From: an uncultured Planctomycetales bacterium
GTDB lineage: Bacteria > Planctomycetota > Planctomycetia > Isosphaerales > Isosphaeraceae
DNA length: 54,455 nucleotides
Assembly: GCA_903926465.1 (NCBI GenBank)
Contig: CAIYJE010000063.1
Span: 1 to 54,455 of the forward strand
Direction of reading: 5' to 3'
Part shown: one piece after another, positions 34,605 through 41,583 of the stretch
Layout of the letters: each line of letters starts with the position of its first letter
Position numbering within the stretch: the stretch's first letter is position 1
The notes under the pieces: generated by a model
What the model saw: only the letters and a program-made list of their open reading frames with translations
Databases searched by the model: none
Told to the model about the DNA's origin: nothing
Made by a program: the position numbers and the translations under genes

Positions 34605-37322
34605 ATGAATATTTACACAGAAGAGCCTGAAGATTCGCTTGTTGTTGATGAGGAATCGCTCGATTTACTCTTGGCAGAAGTGGTCGACGAATTTACGAAC
34701 CGGCTCCAGCGTGGTGAGTCGGCGGGCATCATTGCTGATGAGCTTTGCAGACAACATCCTGAACTGGCTCCAGCAATTCAGGACCTGGTTCCTACCCTCG
34801 CTGGCTTGGCCACAATCGGACGAGACGAGCGAGGTCGCCTCCAGAGCTCGAATGAACTCGACGAACCGCAAGCCGACCGAGAACTGGGGGGATACCGCCT
34901 CATTCGCCAGATCGGCCAGGGGGGGATGGGCGTTGTCTATGAAGCGGAAGACCTTTCACTGAACCGGATGGTCGCGCTCAAAGTTTTGCGTGGACAGGCT
35001 GCGCTAGATTCTCGTTGTTTGCAACGGTTCAAGGTTGAGGCCCAAGCCGCCTCGTGCCTGAGTCATCCGCACATTGTGGCAATTTACGCCATTGGGCGCT
35101 CAGACGATATCTCTTATTACACAATGCCATTGATTGATGGTTTGAGCTTGGATCGAGTGATCCAGATGCTTCAGGCTCGCTCTGGGACCGAGGCCGAACA
35201 GAGGGCAGCACCGGCCGATGTGGCGTTGCATTCCGGGCTCGTCCAAGATCTTCTCAATGGCGACTTCAAATCAACCAAGCAGCCAAGCGATCACATTCCC
35301 AATCCGAGCGGCTCAAAATCAGCTACCAGTTCGATCTCGACACCACCGGCGACCGTTCAGACGATTGGAAAAACGTCCTATATTCATTGCGTGGCGGCTC
35401 TGGGAATTCAGGTGGCCGATGCCCTTCATCATGCCCATGAAACAGGCATCCTCCATCGAGATATCAAGCCAGGAAACCTGCTCCTGGACCGTCGTGGAAA
35501 TCTCTGGATTACGGACTTCGGCCTGGCGCGGTTGCCGGATTCTTCCTATGCGATGACCGACACGGGAGAACGTCCAGGCACGCTGCGCTACATGAGCCCC
35601 GAACAGGCGGCTGGCGACTCGGCCCGCGTGGATCGACGGACCGATCTCTACGCTTTGGGGGCATCCCTTTACGAACTGCTCACACTGGAACCCGCAGTCA
35701 GAGGTTCAGACCCTCAGGTGATTTTACGGGAGATCTTTGAAAGGGATCCCGTCCCCTGTCGTTTATTCAATCCCGCCATCCCTCATGACCTCTCGAACAT
35801 TATTTCCAAGTGTCTCTCCAAAGATCCCGCCCACCGTTACGACACCGGCCGTGAACTGGCTCAGGATTTGCGCCGGTTTCTGGCTGGCGAACCGGTGGAG
35901 GCACGGCCGTTGCAGTGGCCGTCTCGACTCTTGGCCTGGAGCCGCCGCAAGCCCACCATCGCCGCTCTGGCTGCTCTGCTCCTGGGATCGGTCATTGCGG
36001 GCTTCGCTGGCGTGACCATGGCATGGCGTGCGGCAGTCAGTGAACGTGATGAGAAAGATATCGCCCAGCGAGCATCCTCTCACGCACTAGAGCACGCACG
36101 CATCTCTCATCTTAAGTCCGTGATGGCACTTAATGAGGTCGATGCGTTCTCTCAATTCCTGCGCAACCATTTTCTGATGACGCAGGCACCCTTCTCGCAC
36201 GAATTCGACAACAAGCTCACCCTGAAACAAGCGTTGCTACAAGCGGCTGAAAGTATTGAACCCACCTTTCAGAATTCCCCGAAACAGATGACGCTGGTTG
36301 ATAAAGACTTTGCACAGGCATTTCATGATCAGGGCCTGTATGAACGCTCTAGCTTTCATATCAATCGCGCCTTGAAAACGGTGGAAATGCAGGCGAATGC
36401 ACCGCCCGACCCGAGCTATTTAATATTGCCCGGGGGCCTTTCCAGTTTACCAGGCGCGGTTGTGCCGCCCATGCTCTCCGATACCCGACTCTCCTTGGAA
36501 ATCATGCGTGGACACAGCCTCTACCATCTCGGTTTGCTGACAGAGTCCGAGATTCAGCTCCGGCAAATACTCGAAGAACTCGATGTCCTGAAAGAGCCAG
36601 AGTCATTACGCCGAGTCATGTGCGAGAAATATCTCTCGGAAACCTTGATGGGCCTGGGCAATTGGGAAGAGGCCGAACGCATACAGCGGCCACTCCTGGA
36701 TCGAATCCCGCGAGTTGAAGAACTGCCAACTCCGTCTCTGAACTCGATGGAGGCCGACGTCACGCTTCGGCTCGCGGATATCGAATTCGAACGAGGCGAC
36801 CATGTTCAGGCCATCGAGCGGGTTCGAAAACTGGAGACTAAACTTCTTTCAGCAACACCAGTTCCCATCGAGATGCTCCTGAATTGTCGGAACAATCTGG
36901 GTTCCGATCTCCAACGTGACGGGCAACTTGAGAAAGCGGAGGAAATCTTCCGGGAACTGGTGAAAACCTCTCTCCAAATCCACGGCGAATCCGACTTCCG
37001 GACGCTGCTGGTTCAGGAAAATCTGGCCAAGGTCCTGCTGCATCAACATCAGAAACTGGATGAAGCCGAGTTCATCATTCGCGGCGTGCTCTCCAAACTA
37101 ATGGTTGAGCCTGGACCCGACGATGCCTTGACCTTGAAAACCCAGTTCTTGCTGGCACAGTTAATTTTTGAGAATGGACGGATCCGCGAATCGGTTGAGC
37201 TGACCGAGAGAATTCTAGAACGGCAACGCGACAGCCTGGGTGCAATGCACCCGGACACCAAAGCGACAGCCGACGTACTTGAGAGGATTCGCAACATGCC
37301 TGATGACCAGATCAATAAGTGA
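34605..37322 (+). CDS. Receptor-type Ser/Thr protein kinase with C-terminal helical repeats
   Basis: A 905-residue protein. An acidic N-terminal helical region (1-90) precedes a PknB-like kinase domain (97-430): IGQGGMGVVYE P-loop, Lys126, Glu145, HRDIKPGN with Asp286, and DFG at 304-306. A hydrophilic Ser/Pro-rich insert of about 65 residues (193-257) separates the hinge from the catalytic loop, which is unusual. One membrane helix lies at about 451-473. The remaining 430 residues are alpha-helical with TPR-like segments (RDGQLEKAEEIFRELVK, KLDEAEFIIRGVL) and would be outside the cytoplasm. This plan is expanded in planctomycetes; ligand and targets are unknown. Confidence 0.88.
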   Translation: MNIYTEEPEDSLVVDEESLDLLLAEVVDEFTNRLQRGESAGIIADELCRQHPELAPAIQDLVPTLAGLATIGRDERGRLQSSNELDEPQADRELGGYRLIRQIGQGGMGVVYEAEDLSLNRMVALKVLRGQAALDSRCLQRFKVEAQAASCLSHPHIVAIYAIGRSDDISYYTMPLIDGLSLDRVIQMLQARSGTEAEQRAAPADVALHSGLVQDLLNGDFKSTKQPSDHIPNPSGSKSATSSISTPPATVQTIGKTSYIHCVAALGIQVADALHHAHETGILHRDIKPGNLLLDRRGNLWITDFGLARLPDSSYAMTDTGERPGTLRYMSPEQAAGDSARVDRRTDLYALGASLYELLTLEPAVRGSDPQVILREIFERDPVPCRLFNPAIPHDLSNIISKCLSKDPAHRYDTGRELAQDLRRFLAGEPVEARPLQWPSRLLAWSRRKPTIAALAALLLGSVIAGFAGVTMAWRAAVSERDEKDIAQRASSHALEHARISHLKSVMALNEVDAFSQFLRNHFLMTQAPFSHEFDNKLTLKQALLQAAESIEPTFQNSPKQMTLVDKDFAQAFHDQGLYERSSFHINRALKTVEMQANAPPDPSYLILPGGLSSLPGAVVPPMLSDTRLSLEIMRGHSLYHLGLLTESEIQLRQILEELDVLKEPESLRRVMCEKYLSETLMGLGNWEEAERIQRPLLDRIPRVEELPTPSLNSMEADVTLRLADIEFERGDHVQAIERVRKLETKLLSATPVPIEMLLNCRNNLGSDLQRDGQLEKAEEIFRELVKTSLQIHGESDFRTLLVQENLAKVLLHQHQKLDEAEFIIRGVLSKLMVEPGPDDALTLKTQFLLAQLIFENGRIRESVELTERILERQRDSLGAMHPDTKATADVLERIRNMPDDQINK

Positions 37323-37970: not shown

Positions 37971-40586
37971 ATGATGAAGAAGACGATGGCAGCGTGGATG
38001 GCCGGTTTGTTGCTGGCCGCTGGTGGGCAGTCTGCCTCGGCCTGTTGGAAATGTGGTCACGGCGTTAAGGGTGGTCTTGTAGGCGGCTGCTCATATCATT
38101 CGGCCGGCGGTTTAGGCCTCGGTAACGGAAATAGTAACGCAGGTAGTTGGGGTACTGTTGGCGGAAATTCGGCTCCTGCCATCGCCAGCTACGGTGGCTC
38201 TTGCGGAGTGGCCTCGGTTGTGGCTCAGTCGGTTACCGAGTACCAGACCGTCGTCGATACGATTTTCGAACAGGTACCGGTCACCCAGTTGCAGACCCAG
38301 TACCGGACCGACTACCGCACCGAAACCTACCCGGTCACTCGCACCGTGGCGGAACAGGTGCCCGTCACCCAGATACAGACTCAGTACCGGACCGATTACC
38401 GTACTGAAACCGTCCCGGTCACCCGTACCGTAACCGAGCAGGTGCCTGTTACCACCACCCAGACCCAGTATCGGACCGACTACCGCACCGAGACCGTCCC
38501 GGTCACCCGCACCGTGGCCGAGCAGGTGCCCGTCACCCAGATGCAGACCCAGTACCGCACGGAACTCAAAACTGAGACCGTCCCGGTCACTCGCACCGTG
38601 GCTGAACAGGTGCCCGTCACCCAGATGCAGACCCAGTACCGCACTGAGGTTCGCACCGAGACCGTTCCGGTCACCCGCACTGTGACCGAGCAGGTGCCTG
38701 TTACCACCACCCAGACCCAGTACCGGACCGACTACCGCACCGAAACCGTTCCGGTCACCCGCACCGTGACCGAGCAGGTGCCTGTTACCACCACCCAGAC
38801 CCAGTACCGGACCGATTACCGTACCGAAACCGTTCCGGTCACGCAGACCGTTTCGGAAACGGTGAACGTTGCTCGGACGACCACGGTGATGGTTCCCCGG
38901 TCCCAGGTTGTGAATCAGCCGGTCACCCGCACGGTTTACCGCAACGTCACCCAGATGCAGAACCAGCAGCAGGCCTACACGGTCATGCAGTCAGTGACGA
39001 AGACCACCTACCAGCAGCGTCTGGTTCAGGACGTGACCACCAGGCTCGAAACCAGCCTGCAGCCCCAGACCTACGTTGAGCAGGTCCCTGTCACCACCTG
39101 CCGCCAGGTCATCGACGGTTACCAGACAGTTGCCGTGGCTTCCAACGGCACCGCTGGTGCTGGTGCGGCCAATGGCGGTGGCATCGCTGCCGGAACTTGC
39201 GGTTCTTGCGGCAAGCACATCTCCTTCTGCGGCCATGGCCTGCTGAAGAAGTGCGGCCACGGAACCCATGCCTTCAATGGTAGCTGTGGCGGAGCCGCTG
39301 GCGCTGGTGTTGCCGGTGCCGCTAATGGTGCCAACTGCGGCGTGAGCTATGTTTCTCAGCCAATCGTCCGGAACGTCAGCGAAACCAGCTACGTGAACCA
39401 GACCCGCACCCAGATGGTGCCGGTTCAGCGTCAGGTTCAGGTTCCAATCACCCGCACCGAGACCGTTCCGGTCAACGTCACCGTGATGGAGCCCAAGCAG
39501 GAAATTCGCACCGTTCAGGTGCCTGTGACCTCCACCGTCGCCGAACAGGTCACCGAGAATGTGGCTGTCACTCAGACCGTGATGGTTGCCGAACAGCGGA
39601 CCGACATGGTTCCTGAAGTTCGCACCCGTCAGGTGACCACCAACGTCTCCCGTCAGGTTCCAGTTCAGGTTCCCGTCCAGGTCCCTGTCACCACCTACCA
39701 GACCGTCGCCAAGCAGGTCACCGAAAACCAGACCCGCCAGGTTCCGGTTCAGGTTCCTGTTCAGGTGCCTGTTACCACCTACCAGACCGTCGCCAAGCAG
39801 GTCACCGAAAACCAGACCCGCCAGGTGCCTGTCACCACACCAGTTCAGGTCCCTGTCACGGTGCTGACCACCCAGTACAAGCAGGTCACCGAAAACCAGA
39901 CCCGTCAGGTTCCGGTTCAGACCGCCGTGCAGGTTCCTGTTACCGTGATGACAACCCAGACCCGCCAGGTTACCGAAAACCAGACCCGTCAGGTTCCGGT
40001 TCAGGTTCCTGTTCAGGTCCCTGTCACCACCTACCAGACCGTCGCCAAGCAGGTCACCGAAAACCAGACCCGCCAGGTTCCGGTTCAGACCGCCGTGCAG
40101 GTTCCGGTCACCGTGCTAACCACCCAGACCCGCCAGGTCACCGAAAACCAGACCCGTCAGGTTCCGGTTCAGGTTCCCGTGCAGGTCCCTGTCACCACCT
40201 ACCAGACCGTCGCCAAGCAGGTCACCCGTCAGGTTCCCGTCACCCGCACCGTGCTGGTTCCTACGGTCCAGCAGGTAATGGCACCTGCTGAAGGTGTTGT
40301 TTACGGCTCGGTTGAGGGAACTGTGATTGGTAACGGTTCGGTGGCTCCTTCCGCACAGACGCCAGCCGCTGCTCCAGCGGTTGCACCTGTTGCTGCTCCA
40401 GCTACAGCGGCTCAGGACAGTGTTCCTGCTGTTCCGGCTGCACCTGCTCCAGCTCCGGCTCCAGCCACTGCTGTTCCGGCTGCTCCAGCTCCAGTTGCTG
40501 ACGTGGTGAACGAAGTGAAAGCGGCTGTCACGGGTGAGGCTGTTCCTGCCGCTCCCGCTCCAGGCGCTGATGCTCCAAAGAACTGA
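37971..40586 (+). CDS. Exported repeat-rich surface protein (two blocks of 28-residue repeats)
   Basis: An 871-residue protein from the ATG at 37971 (CTGGAG upstream); a GTG at 37920 is less likely. Signal peptide about 1-25, then a short Cys/Gly segment (CWKCGHG). Block 1 (38268-38855) has seven 28-residue units of the type EQVPVT-x-x-QTQYRT-x-x-RTETVPVTRTV. A middle part has a second Cys/His/Gly patch (CGSCGKHISFCGHG). Block 2 (39648-40235) has about seven 28-residue units of the type TRQVPVQVPVQVPVTTYQ-TVAKQVTENQ. The tail is Ala/Pro-rich. Alternating V/T/Q patterns suggest stacked beta structure. It may relate to the Cys- and YTV-motif-bearing wall proteins reported from planctomycetes; that link is untested. 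Ends at a strong terminator. Confidence 0.8.
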   Translation: MMKKTMAAWMAGLLLAAGGQSASACWKCGHGVKGGLVGGCSYHSAGGLGLGNGNSNAGSWGTVGGNSAPAIASYGGSCGVASVVAQSVTEYQTVVDTIFEQVPVTQLQTQYRTDYRTETYPVTRTVAEQVPVTQIQTQYRTDYRTETVPVTRTVTEQVPVTTTQTQYRTDYRTETVPVTRTVAEQVPVTQMQTQYRTELKTETVPVTRTVAEQVPVTQMQTQYRTEVRTETVPVTRTVTEQVPVTTTQTQYRTDYRTETVPVTRTVTEQVPVTTTQTQYRTDYRTETVPVTQTVSETVNVARTTTVMVPRSQVVNQPVTRTVYRNVTQMQNQQQAYTVMQSVTKTTYQQRLVQDVTTRLETSLQPQTYVEQVPVTTCRQVIDGYQTVAVASNGTAGAGAANGGGIAAGTCGSCGKHISFCGHGLLKKCGHGTHAFNGSCGGAAGAGVAGAANGANCGVSYVSQPIVRNVSETSYVNQTRTQMVPVQRQVQVPITRTETVPVNVTVMEPKQEIRTVQVPVTSTVAEQVTENVAVTQTVMVAEQRTDMVPEVRTRQVTTNVSRQVPVQVPVQVPVTTYQTVAKQVTENQTRQVPVQVPVQVPVTTYQTVAKQVTENQTRQVPVTTPVQVPVTVLTTQYKQVTENQTRQVPVQTAVQVPVTVMTTQTRQVTENQTRQVPVQVPVQVPVTTYQTVAKQVTENQTRQVPVQTAVQVPVTVLTTQTRQVTENQTRQVPVQVPVQVPVTTYQTVAKQVTRQVPVTRTVLVPTVQQVMAPAEGVVYGSVEGTVIGNGSVAPSAQTPAAAPAVAPVAAPATAAQDSVPAVPAAPAPAPAPATAVPAAPAPVADVVNEVKAAVTGEAVPAAPAPGADAPKN
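38268..38855 (+). repeat. Seven tandem 84-bp coding repeats, block 1
   Basis: Seven in-frame copies of 84 bp with no insertions or deletions (588 bp exactly), each encoding EQVPVT(Q/T)-x-QTQYRT-x-x-(R/K)TET-x-PVT-x-TV plus one residue. Units alternate between TQM/TQI and TTT variants, suggesting duplication of unit pairs. DNA identity between copies is high, so the array is young or homogenised by recombination. Confidence 0.92.
39648..40235 (+). repeat. About seven tandem 84-bp coding repeats, block 2
   Basis: In-frame 84-bp units encoding (T/S)RQVPVQ-x-x-VQVPVT, then TYQTVAK or a VLTTQ-type variant, then QVTENQ; the seventh unit loses its last three residues. The sequence differs from block 1 but the period is the same, 28 residues. 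Units with TTYQTVAK and units with TV(L/M)TTQT(R) are interspersed. Confidence 0.9.
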
Positions 40587-40620
40587 TCGGAATCTCATTC
40601 CGATCGTGAGTTGAACCAGA

Positions 40621-40650
40621 CCCCCGGGACCTAGTCCTGGGGGTTTTTTA
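40621..40650 (+). terminator. Strong Rho-independent terminator of the repeat-protein gene
   Basis: CCCCCGGGAC and GTCCTGGGGG form a 10-bp GC-rich stem (one G-T pair) with a CTA loop, followed by TTTTTT. It begins 34 bases after the stop codon. Confidence 0.92.
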
Positions 40651-40971: not shown

Positions 40972-41583
40972 ATGTCACGCGAGACTGAACTCGATCGCCT
41001 GATGACCCTGGCTTCCGAAGGGGACGCGCAGGCTCGCCAGCAACTGCTCAACCGCTACCGAGAACCGTTACGCCGCATGGTGGCGAATCGTCTCGATCCT
41101 CGGGTCTCCTCACGCGTCGATGCCTCTGACGTGGTTCAAGATACCTTGATCGAGGCCACTCGCCGGATGGAGGACTTTCTCGAACGCCGACCGATCGCGT
41201 TCCCCGCTTGGCTCCGGCAAATTGCCACCGAACGGATTATCGACGCCCATCGCCGGCATGTTGGCTCCCAGCGCAGAAGCGTGACTCGTGAGATCCGCGA
41301 ACCCTCGGTGCGCGATCAGTCGGCCTCAAGATTAGTCCATCTCTTGCTGGACAATCAAACGAGCCCGAGCGGCCAGTTAATGCGTCGCGAACGGCTGGAC
41401 CGGGTTCGTGCAGCCCTCTCAGCGCTCAAGCCCCATGATCGGGAAGTGCTCGAATTGCGTCACCTCGACCAGATGTCGATCCTTGAAATTGCCGAAACCC
41501 TCGGCCTGACAGAAGCGGCTGTCAAATCTCGCCTGCTTCGTGGCTTGATTCGTCTGCGTGCAGAGCTTGAAACCAGGACCTGA
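40972..41583 (+). CDS. ECF-type RNA polymerase sigma factor
   Basis: A 203-residue protein from the ATG at 40972 (AGGGG upstream). Region 2 runs from LLNRYREPLRRMVANRLDPR through DASDVVQDTLIEATRRME to FPAWLRQIATERIIDAHRRH; region 4 is HDREVLELRHLDQMS, with the helix-turn-helix ILEIAETLGLTEAAVKSRLL. The linker is short with no region 3, as in ECF factors. The RLDPR...DASDVVQ and FPAWLRQIA patterns are those of the ECF groups common in planctomycetes, which often work with Ser/Thr kinases instead of a classical anti-sigma factor. No anti-sigma gene is adjacent; a receptor kinase is encoded 3.6 kb upstream. Confidence 0.88.
   Translation: MSRETELDRLMTLASEGDAQARQQLLNRYREPLRRMVANRLDPRVSSRVDASDVVQDTLIEATRRMEDFLERRPIAFPAWLRQIATERIIDAHRRHVGSQRRSVTREIREPSVRDQSASRLVHLLLDNQTSPSGQLMRRERLDRVRAALSALKPHDREVLELRHLDQMSILEIAETLGLTEAAVKSRLLRGLIRLRAELETRT

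Follow-up and report, generated by a model that had tools for sequence, protein, structure and literature searches.

Gene and protein product

The window, by which we mean the whole stretch of 54,455 nucleotides analyzed here, carries a gene for a protein of 871 amino acids (Table 1). We hereafter call this product the window protein and its orthologues the window-type proteins. The signal peptide of the window protein is probably cleaved before Cys25. The terminator scan detected a similar number of sites in shuffled sequence, and the terminator-like hairpin listed in Table 1 is argued purely from its position.

All of the 102 Gln codons in the window gene are CAG, and 119 of the 149 Thr codons are ACC. 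The bias in Gln codons exceeds that of 10 of the 11 neighboring genes (the remaining one contains just 3 Gln codons), and the bias in Thr codons exceeds that of all 11, a usage that would fit high expression. The gene lies between those for a PknB-like Ser/Thr kinase (34605-37322), TPR-like in its C-terminal region, and a sigma-70-like factor (40978-41583), both of which were recognized by eye. These two neighbors gave no functional clue for the window protein, and no immediate neighbor was found in common at the loci L048-L050, with the window gene itself excepted.

Table 1. Features of the window gene and its product
Feature	Positions	Strand	Basis
Whole gene, ATG at 37971, 871 aa plus stop	37971..40586	+	ORF list; related sequences found by tblastn within the family
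Sec-type signal peptide MMKKTMAAWMAGLLLAAGGQSASA, aa 1-24	37971..38042	+	By eye; orthologues have comparable N termini
N-terminal Cys/Gly/His-rich segment, aa 25-85	38043..38225	+	Read from sequence
Arm 1, aa 86-390, unbroken alternating strand	38226..39140	+	HMM 86-380; AlphaFold2 strand reaches 390
Array 1, 7 x 28 aa, consensus EQVPVTQTQTQYRTDYRTETVPVTRTVA	38268..38855	+	TRF and unit alignment
Arm-1 spacer, aa 296-390, without repeats; partner is the arm-2 junction	38856..39140	+	Profiles, AlphaFold2, charge pairs
Gly/Cys/His-rich patch, aa 391-458, proposed hairpin tip	39141..39344	+	Composition, HMM, AlphaFold2
Arm 2, aa 459-770 (HMM 460-770), unbroken alternating strand	39345..40280	+	HMM, AlphaFold2
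Arm-2 junction, aa 459-559, YVSxPxVRxVxETxYV...; clear likeness to canonical YTV proteins	39345..39647	+	Profile test
Array 2, 7 x 28 aa, units mainly of two kinds, VPVQVPVTTYQTVAKQ and VQTAVQVPVTVLTTQTRQ	39648..40235	+	TRF and unit alignment
Outer closing motif RQVPVTRTVLVP, aa 753-764, kept across the superfamily	40227..40262	+	Orthologue alignment
C-terminal Ala/Pro-rich tail, aa 771-871	40281..40583	+	Composition
PSAQ motif inside the C-terminal tail	40347..40358	+	Read from sequence
Intrinsic-terminator-like hairpin (13-bp stem), then T run, just 3' of the stop	40618..40646	+	Terminator scan

Alternating arms and the 28-residue arrays

When every second residue of the window protein is read, T, P, Y, and Q fall on one face, with V, R, E, Q, and K on the opposite one. 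The phase of this alternation does not slip through array 1 and the spacer, nor through the junction and array 2. Neither array is an isolated block; each makes up the outer portion of an alternating arm that extends beyond it. An arm finder, a three-state HMM for which 16 window-type proteins served as the training set, recognized two alternating arms in 67 of the 71 family proteins, almost all of them without a phase slip. None of the 1295 control ORFs, taken from a 400-kb portion of a related genome, had an alternating arm of at least 60 residues, and the window gene is the sole ORF of the window that does. The alternation is far beyond chance.

In line with the initial annotation, ORF and TRF analyses found block 1 (array 1) to comprise seven 84-bp units with no indel (588 bp) and block 2 (array 2) to comprise seven in-frame 84-bp units, the last of which diverges in its final residues. 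TRF assigned 6.9 copies of 84 bp to each block, with scores of 681 and 647, respectively. The patches placed before block 1 and between the blocks also agree with the positions of Cys and His (Cys25, 28, 40, and 78 ahead of block 1; Cys377, 410, 413, 420, 428, 439, and 456 and His416, 422, 430, and 433 between the blocks). On the other hand, the units are not nearly identical as had been stated; the mean nucleotide identity is just 81% in block 1 and 76% in block 2. The mean pS between units is 0.44 in block 1 and 0.36 in block 2, while the corresponding pN values are 0.10 and 0.20. As pS is far greater than pN, the expansion of the arrays is mostly old and maintained by purifying selection, and these values give no general support to the recent expansion supposed earlier. 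The pairs that look recent (pS of ~0.13-0.14) are units 3/6 in block 1 and units 2/5 and 1/5 in block 2.

The Cys residues of the window protein occur only in the N-terminal region, where arm 1 ends, and in the tip (one in arm 1 and none in arm 2), a distribution that does not amount to Cys-rich repeats. The tip, which spans 41-109 residues between anchors and is flexible in composition, bears no Cys in three orthologues (L026, L048, and L049). The initial suggestion that the cysteines are available for cross-links has to be qualified to this extent, as those at the tip are dispensable.

Besides the tail of the window protein, PSAQ, ASPQ, PSGQ, or ASGQ motifs were observed in nearly all window-type proteins and in many YTV proteins (see below) of Isosphaeraceae (L048, L049, L026, L021, L032, L089, L091, and others). 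They reside in the segments at either terminus or in the tip and almost never within the arms. These motifs are possibly a signal for processing, attachment, or cross-linking. We rejected the idea that a PSAQ/ASPQ tail is a general secretion signal, as it was found in only 1 of the 69 signal-peptide-like proteins encoded within a 400-kb part of a related genome.

Kinship with YTV proteins

In the scans of Pfam and NCBIfam, no model recognized the window protein, and YTV (PF07639) was absent at E≤10. The orthologue L032 matched PF07639 with an E-value of 0.00087 and 19.7 bits, just under the cut-off of 21. Homology to YTV proteins was detected by the profiles of the spacer and junction built from window-type proteins. 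The spacer profile reached 74 bits on real YTV proteins, compared with a maximum of 41 bits in 990 shuffles preserving the alternation, and the junction profile up to 64.7 bits against at most 43.6 bits in 990 such shuffles. Furthermore, the signal peptide, the two arms, the Cys/Gly patch between them, and the closing motif, by which the superfamily is recognized, were all found in the window protein. The arms of window-type proteins contain ~0.9 Cys per 100 aa versus 5.9 and 10.4 in the Pfam-hit YTV set. Altogether, the window protein is a divergent, arm-cysteine-poor sister within the YTV superfamily. Four canonical, Cys-rich YTV proteins (L082, L084, L097, and L112) have many Cys in arm 2 and share the two-arm layout with the window protein.

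According to the literature (PMC10632474), PF07639 is confined to the class Planctomycetia, and we found its matches in 147 of the 148 genomes of the same class and in none of the 14 controls. Window-type orthologues (E≤1e-20) were found in 26 of the 45 Isosphaeraceae genomes, representing 10 of the 21 genera, and the relatives include those of Singulisphaera acidiphila and Singulisphaera sp. GP187. There are three further loci with YTV matches in the genome encoding the window protein, and some genomes possess two different superfamily proteins of the window type (L028, and C42 and C19 in G005). YTV proteins have been reported to be major constituents of the boiled-SDS-resistant walls of Gemmata obscuriglobus (PMC5287468) and of the wall preparations of Rhodopirellula baltica and Gemmataceae (PMC8567305). 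In Planctopirus limnophila, the Planctomycetes-restricted group of essential genes includes that for a YTV protein (PMC10632474). Since the YTV relatives are reported wall constituents, an envelope role is likely for the window protein as well.

Coupled arm lengths and opposed indels

Among 67 proteins of the YTV superfamily with arms of 104-451 residues, arm 1 and arm 2 are correlated in length, with an r of 0.93 and a median difference of 7 aa, albeit the orthologues counted here are related by descent and non-independent. The mean difference between the two arms is 15, compared with 78 for the arms permuted among proteins (10,000 permutations; minimum of 52). Independent contrasts on a FastTree phylogeny yielded an r of 0.83, while the largest value in 5,000 permutations was 0.48. 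Most YTV proteins that we tested obey the two-arm rule.

In 17 of the 20 window-type orthologues, arm 2 anchored by sequence is longer than arm 1 by exactly 2 residues, the arm-1 values being 142, 170, 198, 222, 226, 278, and 282. The steps among these values are multiples of 28 or deletions of 4 residues, and the three exceptions (L019, L050, and L121) are each off by exactly one 28-residue unit. An error in the copy number introduced by short-read assembly, which the initial annotation had named as a pitfall, is unlikely because the arms of 282 and 284 residues obey this rule of the family.

The 4-residue deletions are opposed to each other across the tip. Compared with the window protein, L048 and L049 lack four residues near aa 282 (the last unit of array 1) and four near aa 567 (the first unit of array 2), while L026 lacks four near aa 142 and four near aa 707. 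For positions i and j of the two deletions, both pairs satisfy i+j of ~849 within alignment ambiguity. As j-i is not constant (~285 in L048/L049 vs ~565 in L026), parallel pairing is excluded.

The dominant periods of the two arms are equal in most of the superfamily proteins, including those with unusual periods (28/28 in the window type, 16 or 32 in the majority of YTV proteins, 44/44 in L099, 46/46 in L104, and 48/48 in L111), and the dominant lag is even in all the arms examined. A shared structural constraint, by which the initial annotation accounted for the equal period of unrelated motifs, stands, but that account was incomplete; the periods would be equal because the arrays are partner strands that must stay commensurate.

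The arms are clearly unequal in some Cys-rich YTV proteins (172/104 in L110, 158/265 in L111, 451/354 in L084, and 137/201 in L099). They count against the hairpin model proposed below, which must explain them. At L028, two superfamily genes lie side by side, with arms that are internally matched (222/237 and 153/154).

Charge pairing and register

We counted cross-arm pairs of charged residues at each register, defined as i+j=C, over 67 odd offsets. At C=849, 184 opposite-charge and no like-charge pairs were found across 11 orthologues, which are related by descent and not independent. This offset was the best register in all 11 proteins, while other registers gave mixtures. At C=847, there were 100 opposite-charge and 5 like-charge pairs, and Tyr-Pro pairs reached their maximum (158). 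In a right-twisted antiparallel pair, C-2 corresponds to the diagonal contact of the hairpin. Thus, we take 849 as the direct register. In the orthologues obtained later, the same offset was the best in five out of six; the sixth was the unbalanced L121, in which this offset scored nearly as high.

The part near the tip, which is free from repeats, displays on its own 134 opposite-charge and no like-charge pairs in 19 proteins. Charges are swapped between species (+/- in one and -/+ in the other) at the position pairs 324/525, 340/509, and 344/505. A clear single register near the center was also found in the less regular YTV proteins, with opposite-charge/like-charge counts of, for instance, 32/0 in L015, 31/0 in L083, 31/1 in L089, and 23/0 in L100. 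The register was ambiguous, as expected, in the strongly 16-periodic YTV proteins.

Structure prediction

The AlphaFold2 prediction was based on an alignment of 4 sequences, with a pTM of ~0.2 and a pLDDT below 50 over most of the arrays. In the full-length model (mean pLDDT of 37), two unbroken strands were built at residues 304-390 and 458-543, mostly with a pLDDT of ~62-77; outside these strands, no structure was confident and the arrays were left unresolved. In the model of the fragment comprising residues 212-643, strands 277-390 and 458-570 were paired over ~114 residues at i+j of ~847-848, with a pLDDT of ~75 near the tip and up to ~82. This register, obtained independently of the charge counts, is almost that of the charge pairs. 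As the confidence of AlphaFold2 in the arrays is low, the pairing of array on array is argued from sequence, by which it appears to be strongly supported.

Neither the family profile nor a YTV protein found a solved relative when searched against the sequences in PDB. The fragment model had no significant match in Foldseek (E≥0.024) or VIA (Z≤3.8), which provides no argument for a new fold. The weak matches were mostly with long-hairpin proteins, and the aligned ranges span the tip, supporting the hairpin topology.

Proposed architecture and alternative explanations

We consider it probable that the window protein is a secreted member of the YTV superfamily, which folds into one giant antiparallel beta-hairpin, a two-stranded ribbon serving as a fibre of the envelope. 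The two-arm antiparallel architecture, the coupled lengths, the register, the charge covariation, and the YTV homology are established by the computations above. Arm 1 (residues 86-390) would run out, the patch (391-458) would turn the chain, and arm 2 (459-770) would run back at i+j of ~849, so that array 1 lies on array 2 and the spacer on the junction, residue for residue. Both arrays would need an equal, even period and an equal number of units to hold this register. Face A of the ribbon would display T, P, Y, and Q, and face B would display V with cross-strand salt bridges between R/K and E/D. With ~305 paired residues per arm and ~0.33 nm per residue, we infer a ribbon of ~100 nm. Such ribbons would presumably pack side by side in the envelope through the T/P/Y face, where they may play a mechanical role, and be linked by Cys at the tip and N terminus; in canonical YTV proteins, Cys would serve along the arms too. 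As there are few Cys in the arms of the window type, its cross-links would be mainly at the ends. We are slightly inclined to extend the same architecture to the whole YTV superfamily, in which the giant antiparallel beta-hairpins would have arms of ~100-450 residues (35-150 nm).

The length coupling, register, and charge complementarity would be satisfied equally well if arm 1 were paired antiparallel with arm 2 of another chain, yielding a swapped dimer or a polymer of ribbons joined end to end, and the tip has a length and a flexible composition suited to a linker. Nevertheless, AlphaFold2 builds the hairpin within one chain, and folding of one chain on itself offers the simplest route once the protein has been secreted. 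We regard such intermolecular pairing as unlikely. It is far less probable that the protein forms a beta-solenoid or a fibre of stacked beta-turns, in which the 28-residue unit makes one or two coils, an idea that goes back to the initial annotation. The 28-residue period and the beta propensity speak for such a fold. The corners of a solenoid are expected to interrupt the alternation, which is unbroken over ~300 residues, and AlphaFold2 shows continuous strands. Moreover, a solenoid gives no reason for the equal arms, opposed indels, and antiparallel charge pairing, and stacked turns are contradicted by these features together with the strict alternation.

The low pLDDT in the arrays and the skewed composition might be taken as signs of a low-complexity, largely disordered protein rich in Thr, Val, and Gln, of which the repeats have no defined fold. 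We give this reading hardly any credence, as pN is far below pS between units, no phase slip occurs, and the precise coupling of arm lengths and charges requires a specific structure. Finally, relatives inherit common lengths and some pairs of units look recently copied, so that equal arms might stem from shared descent or DNA-level mechanics (joint gain of units) with no pairing at all. This explanation seems the most improbable to us: slippage in one array is unable to copy the other, as their sequences differ, and the correlation persists in the independent contrasts. Without a structural link, neither the charge swaps nor the opposed deletions of 4 residues would be accounted for, and the covariation in the non-repetitive part also contradicts this explanation. 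Having weighed these alternatives, we favor the intramolecular hairpin. The initial annotation was correct in regarding the product as a planctomycete protein with beta structure and a constraint shared by the equal periods, and its envelope role is made probable by the YTV kinship. Its stacked turns, near-identical units, and recent expansion as a general account are not retained.

In the open-access literature, to which our search was limited, we found no structural model of YTV proteins. If these proteins are length-matched giant beta-hairpins, the protein wall gains a defined unit, for which dimensions, register, and cross-link sites are predicted. The strands would belong to the longest beta-strands of biology, and the arm length and the placement of Cys would set the ribbon length and the cross-linking in the wall. 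The hairpin would also represent an extreme case of folding, in which the register of ~300-residue strands is held by paired indels and salt bridges. In practice, the balance of the arms offers a sequence-only check on the assembly of such repeats.

Comparison with known proteins

We know of no example of two equal arms of ~300 residues paired over their full length. The pore-forming stems of the lysenin, aerolysin, and binary-toxin Ib/CDTb families likewise consist of one long two-stranded antiparallel hairpin per subunit. However, the alignable parts of these stems amount to ~50-60 residues in all, their context is different, and they have neither a sequence relation nor a significant structural score to the window protein. 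Silk, chorion, and corneous beta-proteins are repeat-based beta fibres with alternating faces and, in some of them, Cys cross-links, albeit they are not homologous to the window protein. The closest likeness lies in the YTV proteins (PF07639), which are similarly secreted and bear two alternating arms with a common period around a Cys/Gly patch, a T/P face and a V/R/E face, the junction, and the closing RQVPVxxxxxVP. The window protein differs from them in the size of its units, which have 28 residues where theirs mostly have 16 or 32, and in being missed by the Pfam model.
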